This document shows, piece by piece, positions 54,733-59,560 of a DNA stretch of 64,000 nt. Below the pieces are notes generated by a model. It searched no databases, was not told where the DNA came from, and was given only the letters and a program-made list of their open reading frames with translations. The position numbers and the translations under genes are program-made. Positions within the stretch are counted from its first letter, which is position 1. Every line of letters begins with the position of its first letter. Location: the NCBI GenBank assembly GCA_903834765.1, contig CAILKE010000003.1, positions 1 to 64,000 of the forward strand, in the 5' to 3' direction. This stretch comes from an uncultured Bacteroidota bacterium (GTDB taxonomy: Bacteria > Bacteroidota > Bacteroidia > B-17B0 > Aurantibacillaceae).

Positions 54733-54773
54733 AAAAGCAGTTATTTAGCGCAAGTTAAATAACTGCTTTTTTT
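54733..54773 (+). terminator. Terminator after DUF3276 gene
   Basis: A 15-base perfect stem, AAAAGCAGTTATTTA (54733-54747) with its inverse at 54756-54770, is followed by a T-run. Confidence 0.9.
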
Positions 54774-54796
54774 ATAAAAAAATGTTAAACCCTATT

Positions 54797-54835
54797 GTAT
54801 ATTAAAAATAAAACAATAACTTTGTATCACAAAGT
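54797..54835 (+). promoter_or_regulatory. Promoter with overlapping operator ACTTTG-N5-CAAAGT (copy 1)
   Basis: The -7 element TAACTTTG (54817-54824) is overlapped by the palindrome ACTTTG-TATCA-CAAAGT (54819-54835). A TTG near 54795-54797 serves as the -33 element, 19 bases upstream. A repressor bound here would block RNA polymerase directly. A second copy with the same flanks lies at 55862. Confidence 0.7.
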
Positions 54836-54855
54836 ACTTTTAATATTTTAAAAAT

Positions 54856-55536
54856 ATGACAACAGAAAACACTAATCACCTCGAAGCGATTCAAGATATT
54901 CGTAATATGATGAAAAAATCAACTCGTTTTTTATCATTGAGTGGTTTGTCGGGCGTTTTTGCTGGTATTTACGCTCTTTTTGCGGCTTACGTATCTTACT
55001 TATATTGTCAATCTATTATTAATGATATGATTAATGGTAGATCTGAAAATATTGATGCAAATAAAATTTATTTAAATTTTATTTTGATTGCAGCATGTAC
55101 TTTATTTTTATCCATCATAACTGCTTATTATTTCTCTAATCGTAAAGCTAAACGGATGGGGCAAAATTTATTTGATGATACAGCTATCAGAGTGTTGATT
55201 AATTTATGTATTCCCTTAGTAGCAGGCGGTATTTTTTGTTTAGCATTGCTATACCATGGATCTATCGTATATATTGCTCCAGCTATGTTGTTATTTTATG
55301 GCCTAGCTTTAATAAATGCGAGTAAATATACGTATGATGATATTCGCTATTTTGGTATTTGTGAAATTGTATTAGGTTTGATCAATGCTTTTAATTTAGG
55401 AAATGGGTTGTTGTATTGGGCTATTGGCTTTGGATTTCTTCATATAGTATACGGAGCTACCATGTGGTTTAAATACGAAAAAGGTGTGCATAGTAAACCT
55501 GTTATTAAAGAGAGCGAAGGCACTATTAATTTTTAA
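54856..55536 (+). CDS. Six-helix membrane protein of unknown function, regulator-linked
   Basis: This 226-residue protein begins with a soluble stretch (HLEAIQDIRNMMKKSTRFLSLS) followed by six hydrophobic helices, e.g. SGLSGVFAGIYALFAAYVSYLY (37-58), FILIAACTLFLSIITAYYF, LCIPLVAGGIFCLALLYHG and AIGFGFLHIVYGATMWF. It is typically encoded next to a winged-helix regulator, as here, where the TTG of the next gene lies 8 bases after its stop. No catalytic motif is visible. The palindromic operator in front of it suggests autoregulated expression. Confidence 0.65.
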   Translation: MTTENTNHLEAIQDIRNMMKKSTRFLSLSGLSGVFAGIYALFAAYVSYLYCQSIINDMINGRSENIDANKIYLNFILIAACTLFLSIITAYYFSNRKAKRMGQNLFDDTAIRVLINLCIPLVAGGIFCLALLYHGSIVYIAPAMLLFYGLALINASKYTYDDIRYFGICEIVLGLINAFNLGNGLLYWAIGFGFLHIVYGATMWFKYEKGVHSKPVIKESEGTINF

Positions 55537-55544
55537 GTATTAAC

Positions 55545-55841
55545 TTGAAGAACTATATACATAATTTAAATAAAGCTTTTGAGAATCGTATTCGTTTAGG
55601 GTTGATGAGTGTATTGATGGTGAATGATAGTGTCGATTTTAGTGCGATGAAAGAGATGTTGGATATAACAGATGGTAATTTAGCAAGCCATGTTACCGCA
55701 TTGGAAAAGGAAGGTTATATACATATTAAAAAAGAATTCGTTGGCAAAAAACCATTAACAACTTATTCTGCTACAAAGATTGGTATGAAAGCATTTAACG
55801 ATCATTTAGATGCACTTGAAAAATTATTAAAAGGACGATAA
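55545..55841 (+). CDS. Winged-helix transcriptional regulator (HTH_34-like, TTG start)
   Basis: This 98-residue regulator has a winged-helix fold: LNKAFENRIRLGLMSVLMVND (8-28), the recognition region DGNLASHVTALEKEGYIHIKK (about 43-63), and the wing around KPLTTYSATKIGMKAF. It is a MarR/ArsR-like family (HTH_34). The start is TTG at 55545. It probably binds the two palindromes ACTTTG-N5-CAAAGT that flank its transcription unit, which is inference. Its terminator overlaps the stop codon. Confidence 0.85.
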   Translation: MKNYIHNLNKAFENRIRLGLMSVLMVNDSVDFSAMKEMLDITDGNLASHVTALEKEGYIHIKKEFVGKKPLTTYSATKIGMKAFNDHLDALEKLLKGR

Positions 55842-55852
55842 TCCTTTTTTTT
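55829..55852 (+). terminator. Terminator overlapping the regulator stop codon
   Basis: AAAAGGA (55829-55835) pairs with TCCTTTT (55842-55848), and the loop contains the TAA stop. A T-run follows. Confidence 0.75.
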
Positions 55853-55859
55853 TGAACAA

Positions 55860-55878
55860 TAACTTTGAAATTCAAAGT
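55860..55878 (+). promoter_or_regulatory. Promoter with overlapping operator ACTTTG-N5-CAAAGT (copy 2)
   Basis: TAACTTTG (55860-55867) is the -7 element, and the palindrome ACTTTG-AAATT-CAAAGT occupies 55862-55878. The flanks (AATAACTTTG before, CAAAGTACTTTTAA after) match the first copy at 54817. No clear -33 TTTG is present. Confidence 0.7.
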
Positions 55879-55890
55879 ACTTTTAAATAA

Positions 55891-56400
55891 ATGATTACTA
55901 AAACTAAAATCATGAAAACGACACAAATAACAAAAATCAGACGAGTAGTAGTGGTATTTATCATACTGTTAGTTTTAAGCGGTATAACTGCGTTTCCATT
56001 GACATCAGAGCTTGATTGGATGATTACTCATCTCAATTCATTTCCTAAATTTTTTCATCATTGGATTATAAATGTGTCTGATTCGATTCATAAAACCCCA
56101 GTTATTGTTTTGTACGGAACAGATTGGTTAGCCTTTGCACATATTATCATAGCTGTCTTTTTTGTTGGTGTATATATCAATCCTGTAAAAAACAAATTCA
56201 TCATTACTGTGGGAATTATAGCTTGTATAGCCGTCTTTCCCATAGCCTTTATTTGTGGGCCAATAAGAGGTATTCCATTTTATCATCAATTGATTGATTG
56301 TTCTTTTGGTGCAATTGGATTGATCCCATTAATATACGTTAGAAATAAAATAAAAAGGATAGAAGATATTAATGGGACAGACGAGATAATAGAGATTTAA
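55891..56400 (+). CDS. Four-helix membrane protein of unknown function
   Basis: This 169-residue protein has four predicted membrane helices: VVVVFIILLVLSGITAFPL (19-37), TDWLAFAHIIIAVFFVGVYI near 77-96, IITVGIIACIAVFPIAFICG near 104-123, and FGAIGLIPLIYV near 139-150. A long loop lies between helices 1 and 2. An internal ATG at codon 8 (MKTTQITK) is an equally good start. It is the first gene behind the second palindromic promoter, and the COQ4-like gene follows after 21 bases. Confidence 0.6.
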   Translation: MITKTKIMKTTQITKIRRVVVVFIILLVLSGITAFPLTSELDWMITHLNSFPKFFHHWIINVSDSIHKTPVIVLYGTDWLAFAHIIIAVFFVGVYINPVKNKFIITVGIIACIAVFPIAFICGPIRGIPFYHQLIDCSFGAIGLIPLIYVRNKIKRIEDINGTDEIIEI

Positions 56401-56421: not shown

Positions 56422-56925
56422 ATGAAAACTATTAGAAAAAAACTCAAATTAATATTTGATTATTTGATCAAGTTACATCTGAAAATATCCTCTTTGGTAG
56501 CTGGTATTATAGGACCAATGGTTTTTGAGATTGGATCAAAAGATAAAAATTGGAATCTATGCACATCTCAATTGCTTCAATATCCAGAAGGAAGTCTAGG
56601 TAAAACATTGGGTGAATTTTTGAAGAAACAACAAGTAGAACTACTTGTTGGAGCAGAGTATCACGACATTCATCATGTGCTTTTTGATTATTCCATTTCA
56701 TTTAAAGATGAAGTAGCTTTGCAGTTCTTTTTGCATGGCAATGGCAATAAGTCTATTGCATCTATCAGTACTCGTATTGGAGCGTGGTGTCTACTGCCTA
56801 AAGACTGGAAGTATCTAAAAGCCTCATACGAAAGAGGCAAAAAATGTAAAGACGTCTCTGTACTTAATTTTAAAATGATGTTACATCAAGATCTTACACA
56901 AGTGAAGGCATATCTATTTGCCTAA
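56422..56925 (+). CDS. COQ4-like protein with HDxxH-x11-E motif
   Basis: This 167-residue protein matches the COQ4 family, which in mitochondria supports coenzyme Q biosynthesis by binding zinc and removing C1 carboxyl/hydroxylating the ring. The defining motif is intact: H81-D82-I-H-H85, then eleven residues, then E97. The upstream YPEGSLGKTLGEFLKK (54-69) also follows the family pattern. Since Bacteroidota usually make menaquinone, a ubiquinone role is unlikely, and another lipid substrate may be bound. It sits in the operon behind the second palindromic promoter, after the membrane protein gene. Confidence 0.7.
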   Translation: MKTIRKKLKLIFDYLIKLHLKISSLVAGIIGPMVFEIGSKDKNWNLCTSQLLQYPEGSLGKTLGEFLKKQQVELLVGAEYHDIHHVLFDYSISFKDEVALQFFLHGNGNKSIASISTRIGAWCLLPKDWKYLKASYERGKKCKDVSVLNFKMMLHQDLTQVKAYLFA

Positions 56926-56960: not shown

Positions 56961-58436
56961 ATGAAAAAAAACGATTATCTTTTGCTAATAGCTACAGGTG
57001 CTTATAGCATATTATTTTTCCAACAAAATGCTGGGATTAATTTTTTAATTTTTTCGGTGGTATTAATCACCATACTTATTTTTAAAAATAAGCATTTACT
57101 AAAGCATAAAAAATGGTTATGGTCTGCGGCATTATGTCTCATTTCAGCGACGAGTGTTTTTGTTCATTCGAGCGCTTTGGCTATTATCGCCAATATCATT
57201 AGTTTATTATTAGTTTCAGCTTTTTCATTTAACATCGTCACTTCAAGTATTTTTTCGTTTCTATTTAGCTGTTATACGGTTATTTCTTGCATAATATATA
57301 TTATTATTGATTCTATTGCCAGACTGCAGCCTAAGCCAGATGCTATTGCTTCTAAGCGTGGATATAAGATATTGGCAACCGTTATTGTGCTTATATTAAG
57401 TATATTATTTTTGAATTTATATCAATCGTCAAATCCTTTATTTGCTGCAAACACCAAGTGGATTAATTTTGATTTTATTTCTGTTACATGGATCTTCTTT
57501 ACTCTTGGCGGTTTTTTATTGATGTATTCCTTTTTGTATCATCAAACAATTAAACCAATAGAAGTATGGGAAAATAATTTATCACTAAAAAATGCATTAA
57601 TTGATGAAAACGAAACTATTGGAGAGCATTATGAAACCGAACGTTTTGGAGGATTACTCTTATTTATGGTTTTAAATGTAATGCTCATAGTTTTAAATGT
57701 GGGAGATATACAAACACTTTATTTTGGCGGCGGTTTGCCTAAAGGCGTTACGCATTCTGATTTTGTGCATAATGGAGTAGGGGTAATTATTTTTTCCATC
57801 ATCATTGCCACGAGTTTAATGCTATTTTTATTTCGTAAAGAATTTATTGCTATAAAAAATAACAAAGCCTTAATTGCTTGTATTTACTTATGGATTGGAC
57901 AAAACATCCTCATGCTTTCATCAACAGCCATTCGTAATCAATTGTATATACATGATTATAATTTCACCTATAAACGCATAGGAGTATATGTTTGGTTATT
58001 ATTAGCGGTGATAGGATTATTAATTATGTTTTTGAAAATATATAAAAAACGATCTAATTGGTATTTGATAAAAACGAATGTCGCTGTTTGGTTTACTGTT
58101 TTAGCTTTAAGTAGTGTGGTTAATTGGGATATAGTAATCACGCGTTATAATATCAGTAATAAGCCATTGAAAGATGTTGATTTTTATTATTTATTCTCTT
58201 TATCAGATGCTAATTTACCTGATTTACTGGCTATCTCGAAGAAACCAGAATGTATACAATTTAAAGATAGTTTAAGAAATTATTCAGATTTAAACCAGCG
58301 TTATTATAACGAATCTTATGATCAATTATTAAACGCGAAGCTTCAGCATTATTTATCCGATTACACAAACGATTGGCGTAGTTTCGATTTAAGAGATCAA
58401 GATATTATCAACAGTATTTATTCATTTAAAAAATAA
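56961..58436 (+). CDS. DUF4173-type multi-pass membrane protein
   Basis: This 491-residue protein has about twelve membrane helices and the DUF4173 block NPLFAANTKWINF near 155-170, followed by GGFLLMYSFLYHQT. A later GVTHSDFVHNGVGVIIFSI near 270-290 is highly conserved in the family. The C-terminal 80 residues are soluble. The function is unknown. It lies 35 bases after the COQ4-like gene in the same direction, so it likely belongs to the regulated locus. Confidence 0.8.
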   Translation: MKKNDYLLLIATGAYSILFFQQNAGINFLIFSVVLITILIFKNKHLLKHKKWLWSAALCLISATSVFVHSSALAIIANIISLLLVSAFSFNIVTSSIFSFLFSCYTVISCIIYIIIDSIARLQPKPDAIASKRGYKILATVIVLILSILFLNLYQSSNPLFAANTKWINFDFISVTWIFFTLGGFLLMYSFLYHQTIKPIEVWENNLSLKNALIDENETIGEHYETERFGGLLLFMVLNVMLIVLNVGDIQTLYFGGGLPKGVTHSDFVHNGVGVIIFSIIIATSLMLFLFRKEFIAIKNNKALIACIYLWIGQNILMLSSTAIRNQLYIHDYNFTYKRIGVYVWLLLAVIGLLIMFLKIYKKRSNWYLIKTNVAVWFTVLALSSVVNWDIVITRYNISNKPLKDVDFYYLFSLSDANLPDLLAISKKPECIQFKDSLRNYSDLNQRYYNESYDQLLNAKLQHYLSDYTNDWRSFDLRDQDIINSIYSFKK

Positions 58437-58441
58437 AAAAT

Positions 58442-58909
58442 ATGGAAAATTATTCATCTACAGAAAATGACTTTATATATATGTTATTAGTAGGATTATT
58501 TATAGCAGAATTTGCAATTGGCGCCATTCAGATAATTGGTGCTTTTATCAGAACAGCTATTTTGTTTAATAAAAATAAACCACTTGGTAAATTGAAAATG
58601 TATTGGATAATGGTACTTATTTATTTTATCATTTTTGGTGCCTTATATTTCACACAGCAATATATTCTTAGTGGTATTTGGTTTAAAGATTTCAATCAAT
58701 ATAATTCAGAAGATTATCTTCTTAAAATAAAATTATATAGCTATTTCATGTATGCTTACATTATTTGGATTGCAATGGCGTGGCTTATTGCCATTTGGTA
58801 TTCCTTTCATATTGTTTTTAATAAAAAGAGTTATAATTTGTCAGCCTCTCATGAGGCGATAAATGTAATCGCTGAAAATGATGATTCGAGCGATTCAATC
58901 AGTCATTAA
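58442..58909 (+). CDS. Small membrane protein of unknown function
   Basis: This 155-residue protein has three or four membrane helices: FIYMLLVGLFIAEFAIGAIQIIGAF (11-35), MYWIMVLIYFIIFGALYFTQ (52-71), and YFMYAYIIWIAMAWLIAIWYS (near 100-120). The C-terminus is acidic. It begins 5 bases after the DUF4173 gene's stop codon, so the two are co-transcribed. I do not recognise a family. Confidence 0.6.
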   Translation: MENYSSTENDFIYMLLVGLFIAEFAIGAIQIIGAFIRTAILFNKNKPLGKLKMYWIMVLIYFIIFGALYFTQQYILSGIWFKDFNQYNSEDYLLKIKLYSYFMYAYIIWIAMAWLIAIWYSFHIVFNKKSYNLSASHEAINVIAENDDSSDSISH

Positions 58910-58942: not shown

Positions 58943-59560
58943 ATGAAAACCTTTAAGCAACTCATTTATACCTTTACCTTGTTTAGTTTAATGTTATTAA
59001 CCTATCGCATCATTAAAAGTGATGGATTAAGCTATATATTTTTAGTTTGGAATTTATTTTTAGCTTTTATTCCTTGGTGGATAAGCGATTACATAAAGCG
59101 TCAACATAAAATAACTATTATACACCTTCCAATTGTATTAGTATGGTTATTATTTTTGCCTAATGCGCCTTATATATTAACGGATTTGTTTCATTTAAAA
59201 CCTCGACCTGATTTGCCATTATGGTATGATTTAATCTTAGTATTATCGTTTGCTTTAACAGGAATGATGGTGTTTTTCAAATCATTGAAAGAGATGCTTA
59301 CATTATTAAATGAACGTATTGGTAAATTTTATGTTACAATTATTACACCTCTATTATTTTGGTTAGTTTCTTATGGCTTATATTTAGGAAGATATTTGCG
59401 CTTTAATAGTTGGGATATAGTCCACCCATTTACATTGTTAAAAGCCAGTTTTGGAATCTTTTTTGAAAAAGATACTATTGGTTTTACAGTTATTTTTACT
59501 GTATTTATGTGGTTTTTGTATGTAATGATTTCTAACTTTAATCAGCAAGAAAAAGTGTGA
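58943..59560 (+). CDS. DUF1361 membrane protein
   Basis: This 205-residue protein of the DUF1361 family has six membrane helices and the signature FLPNAPYILTDLFHL (72-86), followed by WYDLILVLSFALTGMM and a conserved GRYLRFNSWDI near 150. The function is unknown. It is the last gene of the run that starts behind the second palindromic promoter, 33 bases after the preceding membrane protein gene. Confidence 0.85.
   Translation: MKTFKQLIYTFTLFSLMLLTYRIIKSDGLSYIFLVWNLFLAFIPWWISDYIKRQHKITIIHLPIVLVWLLFLPNAPYILTDLFHLKPRPDLPLWYDLILVLSFALTGMMVFFKSLKEMLTLLNERIGKFYVTIITPLLFWLVSYGLYLGRYLRFNSWDIVHPFTLLKASFGIFFEKDTIGFTVIFTVFMWFLYVMISNFNQQEKV

Follow-up and report, generated by a model that had tools for sequence, protein, structure and literature searches.

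Comparison of a 64,000-nucleotide stretch of DNA from an uncultured Bacteroidota bacterium of the family Aurantibacillaceae (further referred to as the window) with genomes across its phylum revealed a 22-bp operator, ACTTTG-N5-CAAAG-Y-R-CTTT, that lies on both sides of a gene for a small HTH_34 winged-helix protein and co-occurs with it. Judged from these sequence comparisons, the regulator and the operator probably constitute an autorepressor with a cell envelope regulon. In the mechanism proposed, the 98-amino-acid HTH_34 protein would bind the operator as a dimer. At the first copy (site 1), the bound regulator would occlude RNA polymerase at a promoter of the form TTG-N19-TAnnTTTG and so repress its own operon, composed of a membrane protein gene (memA) and the regulator gene. 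The second copy (site 2) would control the genes for memB, a Coq4-like protein, a DUF4153 protein, memC, and a DUF1361 protein, and further copies in other Bacteroidota would control genes for CreD, a C92 amidase with a Coq4-like protein, DUF2809 proteins, XrtN-VIT proteins, and small membrane proteins.

Organisation of the locus

The locus is preceded by a likely intrinsic terminator (54733-54770), a strong 15-pair hairpin followed by a T-run, which probably closes the upstream DUF3276 gene; the hairpin was reported on the minus strand, is symmetric, and is followed by a T-run on the plus strand too. This suggests that the memA unit probably starts afresh at site 1. All further features lie on the plus strand. 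Promoter 1 comprises a -33 TTG (54795-54797), assigned from the sequence and from a TTG at a comparable place in relatives, and a -7 box TAACTTTG (54817-54824), with a predicted +1 near 54829. This box overlaps operator 1, ACTTTGTATCACAAAGTACTTT (54819-54840), which, as operator 2, ACTTTGAAATTCAAAGTACTTT (55862-55883), was located by a pattern scan and by alignment with relatives. Operator 1 is followed by memA (54856-55536), encoding a conserved membrane protein of 226 amino acids, and by the regulator gene (55545-55841), which has a TTG start. A weak hairpin, AAAGGA-CGATAA-TCCTTT (55830-55847; MFE -5.2, z -1.2), covers the last codons of the regulator gene; it occurs in relatives of the same genus too and is not general. 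A T-run (55845-55853), close behind the regulator stop codon, ends 8 bp upstream of operator 2. Thereafter come memB (55891-56400; membrane protein of 169 amino acids, no Pfam match), the Coq4-like gene (56422-56925; PF05019), the gene for the DUF4153 membrane protein (56961-58436; PF13687), memC (58442-58909; hydrophobic protein of 155 amino acids, no Pfam match), and the gene for the DUF1361 membrane protein (58943-59560; PF07099).

The twin palindromes on which the original prediction was based are present as described, with exact ACTTTGTATCACAAAGT at 54819-54835 and exact ACTTTGAAATTCAAAGT at 55862-55878, both preceded by AATAACTTTG and followed by CAAAGTACTTTTAA; likewise, the genes placed at 54856 and 55891 were confirmed as open frames, with the 98-residue regulator encoded between the palindromes. 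The name DUF4173, given to one of the membrane proteins, has to be replaced, as the gene matches DUF4153. Both palindromes had also been placed on the same type of promoter, which holds for TAACTTTG, found at both sites in the window, and not for the -33 TTG, which is present 19 bp before TAACTTTG at site 1 alone and has no counterpart at that spacing at site 2.

Rarity and extent of the operator

The exact palindrome ACTTTG-N5-CAAAGT occurred twice in the whole 3.6-Mb genome, namely at the two sites of the window, and other exact sites were not found elsewhere in this genome; the reversed control pattern gave zero matches. When one mismatch was allowed, 16 palindromes were retrieved, compared with 23 for the reversed control. 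Hence, scans for loose palindromes (one or two mismatches) yielded background numbers only, and it is only the exact form that stands out. Flanks of the one-mismatch palindromes were inspected singly for two of them (L003 and L004), which lacked the CTTT extension described below, and the other twelve were covered by a scan for the extended pattern (at most two mismatches), in which the two operators were the only mismatch-free entries. An extended copy with one mismatch (G000:C34:44324), situated within or beside large open frames (L130), was set aside as a chance match.

Alignment of the operator copies of the family indicated that the conserved unit exceeds the palindrome. Indeed, CTTT at positions 18-21, outside the palindrome, was invariant in all 81 family copies, and the base before it was A or G in 78 of these, so that the conserved unit is an asymmetric element of 22 bp, extending 5 bp beyond the palindrome through CTTT. 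The N5 spacer is variable, and the arms and CTTT are near-invariant. Of this extension, the original prediction had noted a shared flank only. It may represent a third half-site or, together with the right arm, an inner palindrome AAAG-YR-CTTT; a simple dimer does not explain the asymmetry.

Conservation within the family Aurantibacillaceae

An orthologue of the regulator was found in 42 of 87 family genomes (E ≤ 1e-15); the order-level search covered the same 87 genomes and added none. All 42 loci (the window and 41 others) were compared, and every one of them had an operator on one or both sides of the gene, so that the palindrome is conserved in relatives, as the original prediction required. 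With at most one mismatch in the arms, site 1 was present in 41/42 and site 2 in 40/42 loci. Site 1 of L099 and site 2 of L111 are absent because of contig ends, and L089 has the sequence but no site 2. The exact 17-mer occurred in 37 of 41 copies of site 1 and in 28 of 40 copies of site 2, all 12 inexact copies of the latter carrying a C in place of the last T.

At genome level, the exact 17-mer was encountered in 47/87 family genomes, comprising 40 of the 42 genomes with an orthologue and seven of the 45 without. Among the palindromes examined that were unlinked to the regulator gene, six of nine in orthologue-bearing genomes possessed the CTTT extension versus none of seven in orthologue-less genomes, these seven lying in six of the seven such genomes (the site of G019 being left out).

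Conservation across the phylum

The phylum was represented by 395 evenly drawn Bacteroidota genomes, in which orthologues were identified by profile search (E ≤ 1e-20). The exact 22-mer was present in 92 genomes, compared with none for its reversed control, and a regulator orthologue in 133. Both were found in 90 genomes, the site only in two (G179 and G301), the orthologue only in 43, and neither in 260 (Fisher p 9e-53, a nominal value, since the genomes are related). Thus, 90 of the 92 genomes with the exact 22-mer carry the orthologue, contrary to the possibility, named beforehand as a refutation, that the palindrome would occur at many promoters lacking the regulator. Of the 43 genomes with an orthologue and no exact 22-mer, 31 lacked the relaxed form CTTTGN5CAAAGNNCTTT as well. 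Of the 114 genomes with this relaxed form, 102 had an orthologue; the reversed control of the relaxed form was found in 22 genomes, 13 of them without an orthologue, which indicates that the 12 orthologue-less genomes with the relaxed form represent background level. A chance origin of the operator pair was ruled out by its rarity in its own genome and by the co-occurrence in the phylum, with zero matches for the reversed controls of the exact forms.

Furthermore, the locus was examined in named genomes, for which the best 80 of at least 576 confirmed loci were taken, picked by similarity and not at random. Among these best 80, the gene-facing strand carried site 1 in 79, site 2 in 76, and both in 75 loci (at most two mismatches), one of the two sites missing in L180, L182, L184, L198, and L208; 46 copies of site 1 and 56 copies of site 2 were exact 22-mers. 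Genera possessing the locus include Flavobacterium, Chryseobacterium, Elizabethkingia, Hymenobacter, Pontibacter, Rufibacter, and Siphonobacter. Some drift among clades is visible, as many copies in Chryseobacterium and Hymenobacter have TT in place of YR.

The regulator and its neighbour memA

The regulator is the only HTH_34 protein found in its own genome. The original assignment to this family was confirmed by a match to PF13601 over domain positions 1-80 of 80, with 102.7 bits (cut-off 27). Its structure model (pLDDT 92.3, pTM 0.81) displays a wHTH fold with a long C-terminal helix. The nearest solved structure is PH1061 (PDB 1ub9; sequence E 2.7e-10, TM 0.86), with MarR and PadR proteins next. 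The protein is regarded as a probable MarR-like winged-helix regulator, which would act as a dimer.

The memA family is unnamed and strongly conserved, with many near-invariant Gly, Pro, Tyr, and His residues in an alignment of 108 distinct sequences, and the memA protein of the window gave no Pfam match above cut-off, with DUF308 only below threshold. A memA match was found upstream of the regulator gene and on the same strand in 42/42 family loci and in 80/80 named loci (the best 80 of at least 576), the distance leaving room for an intervening gene in 12 of the latter. Accordingly, memA is put forward as the leading candidate sensor or partner of the regulator. As to the derepressing signal, a tentative guess is that memA may relay an envelope or membrane signal.

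Site 1: a putative operator on a predicted promoter

Promoters recognised by sigmaA in Bacteroidota include a -33 element. Their TAnnTTTG box is placed at -12 to -5 relative to +1 in excerpts of PMC9723704. Site 1 fits such a promoter, with TAnnTTTG and a TTG about 19-20 bp upstream. Counted from the operator, a TTG starting at -27 to -23 was present in 38/41 family and 72/79 phylum rows (distinct rows, yet with some genomes common to both sets); positions -2 and -1 were TA in 39/41 family and 40/79 phylum rows and TT in 2 and 36, respectively. Hence, site 1 looks like a Bacteroidota promoter that overlaps an operator. Given the placement of the sigmaA box, operator 1 spans approximately -12 to +12, so that a bound protein would cover both the box and the start point, which makes repression at site 1 plausible from its geometry. 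In the window, memA starts 37 nt after the first base of operator 1, the median being 26 nt.

Site 2: a constant copy behind the regulator gene

At site 2, a TTG at the -33 place was present in 2/40 family and 1/76 phylum rows, and the TA of the -7 box in 3/40 and 19/76 rows, respectively; a Bacteroidota sigmaA promoter was not recognised there, the window having the TA without the TTG. Six or more consecutive T preceded site 2 in 32/40 family and 71/76 phylum rows, at about -15 to -9, versus 0/41 and 2/79 rows for site 1. A stable G+C-rich hairpin before this T-run was not general (median MFE -1.8 and median z 0.1 over 108 distinct rows; z ≤ -2 in six and MFE ≤ -5 in 22 of them). An intrinsic terminator was therefore not supported as a general explanation of site 2; the window has a weak hairpin, which was not flagged in the terminator scan. 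In six family loci (L094, L097, and L100-L103), the next gene, of the DUF6688 type (370-371 amino acids; labelled from the match of the L146 protein and clustering), has its ATG within operator 2. A promoter at this place would start transcription further downstream, which suggests read-through from promoter 1 or leaderless starts. In these loci, the letters of operator 2 also encode MQS(A/T)L.

It had been proposed that the regulator represses both units. The pairing of regulator and operator underlying this proposal is strongly supported by comparative genomics, and the geometry of site 1 makes repression plausible there, but site 2 has no recognisable -33 element, so that repression of initiation is not established at the latter. 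Site 2 has about an even chance of being a second promoter without a -33 element, the T-run partly taking over the role of the latter, that would be repressed in the same way as site 1. The TTTG of the -7 box is retained there, preceded by TA in the window, and the site stays in place while the downstream genes change, although the poor conservation of TA and the absence of TTG argue against a promoter. Alternatively, though rather unlikely, site 2 may act as a repressor-gated elongation block, at which polymerases coming from promoter 1 would stall against the bound protein, with the 3' end of the transcript in the T-run, and would then be released; the regulator would thus attenuate the downstream genes rather than block a promoter. 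The scarcity of the -33 TTG, the position of the T-run just before the operator and near the stop codon, and the lack of a general hairpin are consistent with such a block, and the DUF6688-type genes that start inside operator 2 seem to need read-through, unless their starts are leaderless. Moreover, excerpts of PMC4132739 and PMC10310618 present protein roadblocks that cut downstream transcription as established for LacI, CcpA, and CodY. What argues against an elongation block is that the third sites in Flavobacterium have T-runs at a similar distance that are part of an upstream terminator-like hairpin, and that the 22 rows with low MFE and the hairpin of the window do show some folding before site 2. 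The remaining probability falls to some other function of site 2. The most far-reaching reading, namely an envelope regulon shared among Bacteroidota under one HTH_34 protein, with a three-half-site operator built into the -7 box, initiation blocked at site 1, and elongation blocked at site 2 as a hairpin-free, repressor-gated terminator, is doubtful as a whole.

Two further explanations concern the element itself. The palindrome can pair as ACUUUG-N5-CAAAGU, with a 6-bp stem and a 5-nt loop, and lies near gene starts, so that it could be mainly an RNA hairpin of leaders that acts after transcription. However, its left arm at site 1 is the -7 box, which should not be transcribed; compensatory changes between the arms were not seen, the T to C change of the last base in family copies of site 2 being unmatched by the first base; and CTTT, which does not take part in the stem, is conserved to the same degree as the arms. 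An RNA hairpin was rejected mostly on the geometry and the lack of visible compensatory change, and is considered extremely improbable. It is also very unlikely that the sites are bound by a protein encoded elsewhere, with the HTH_34 gene being a mere neighbour, given the tight co-occurrence of site and orthologue at genome level and the presence of sites on both sides of the HTH_34 gene across the phylum. Binding of the operator by the HTH_34 protein is thus the preferred explanation.

Candidate regulon

Behind site 2, the family loci contain a varying set of genes, encoding memB, Coq4-like proteins, DUF6688 proteins, an unnamed family of the 237-amino-acid type, DUF4153 proteins, and DUF1361 proteins. 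In the named loci (the best 80 of at least 576), gene clusters were counted within -2.5 to +5 kb. A DUF4153-like cluster was present in 51/80 and a Coq4-like one in 29/80 of these, both named after the window proteins that matched by tblastn; small proteins of approximately 100 amino acids were found in 27/80, CreD in 18/80 (the representative in L170 matching PF06123 and NF008712), and a metallophosphoesterase in 7/80. According to PMC4689548, CreD is an inner-membrane protein, and its NCBIfam name is cell envelope integrity protein.

In addition, 41 extended sites unlinked to the regulator gene were examined, being a subset of such sites (35 hand-picked from the phylum list and six from the family). 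Based on mechanical open reading frame calls, the next gene was on the same strand in 38 cases and started within 120 bp in 35, whereas three sites faced a gene on the opposite strand and four were spanned by an open frame. Recurrent genes after these sites encode a membrane protein of 96-190 amino acids, a membrane protein of 110 amino acids, and a C92 amidase followed by a Coq4-like protein; DUF2809 proteins with an MpaB-like oxygenase, a DoxX-like protein (below cut-off), DUF4153-like proteins, and, behind one site (L256), CreD were found too. Extended operators also occur before genes for XrtN-system VIT proteins (L112:3259-3280, L114:876-897, and L267:2362-2383), with TIGR04477 confirmed in L112 and L267 and L114 alike by eye. 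These copies tie an exosortase-type sorting system to the candidate regulon in some genomes. Downstream genes encountered in a single case, such as those for a beta-lactamase-family protein and a radical SAM protein, may be true targets or chance. For instance, L250 has an extended operator (site 2618, reverse strand) before a B12-binding radical SAM gene, and a similar-looking protein is encoded downstream of the site in L274. Eight loci of the Flavobacterium type (L263-L266 and L268-L271), which are C92-amidase/Coq4 loci, have a further site, in which YR is replaced by AA or GA, behind the C92 gene or near the first site; several of these loci show, by eye, hairpins resembling terminators immediately before the operators.

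Taken together, these genes suggest the cell envelope as the theme of the candidate regulon. One small local regulon, as originally predicted, is not supported in this form, since some relatives have further sites elsewhere in the genome.

Significance and comparison with known systems

Apart from the gut Bacteroides, little has been described of how transcription is controlled in Bacteroidota. As the 22-bp operator can be read from the sequence in many genera, it may provide lists of candidate targets among proteins whose function is unknown, with DUF4153, DUF1361, DUF2809, DUF6688, Coq4-like proteins, CreD, and memA joined in a single candidate regulon. A promoter/operator pair for use in laboratory Flavobacterium might be derived from it as well. 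An elongation block at site 2 would, if real, represent a hairpin-free, repressor-gated terminator conserved across a phylum.

A description of the HTH_34 regulator, the 22-bp operator, or the layout was not found in the open-licence papers searched; the excerpts of PMC9723704 contain no mention of this regulator or CreD, and the regulators in those of PMC10197871 are of the TetR, OmpR, and LytTR types. The regulator class and autoregulation through an overlapping operator are of known kinds, while the regulon, its 22-bp operator, and the arrangement of the two sites are apparently undescribed.

With the CreBC-CreD system of Proteobacteria (PMC4689548), the present loci have in common the occurrence of CreD, near the regulator or behind the unlinked site of L256; that system is under two-component control, whereas any control of CreD here would lie with a wHTH protein of a single domain. 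Roadblock repression by CcpA, CodY, and LacI, as far as covered by excerpts of PMC4132739, likewise involves an operator located behind a gene within a presumed transcription unit, but here a fixed T-run, of putative role, precedes the operator. The HTH_34 protein PH1061 (PF13601; 1ub9) resembles the regulator in sequence and predicted fold, both being a single wHTH domain of approximately 100 residues; to our knowledge, no operator or regulon is known for it. OhrR, HpaR, and Rv3488, which were among the fold matches of the regulator model, are autorepressors of the MarR/PadR type with an operator overlapping the promoter. The fold class, a palindrome of approximately 17 bp, and the autoregulatory layout are common to these systems and the present one. 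Unlike in these autorepressors, the operator is here an asymmetric element of 22 bp with an extra CTTT, built into the TAnnTTTG box, and a constant second copy is located behind the regulator gene.
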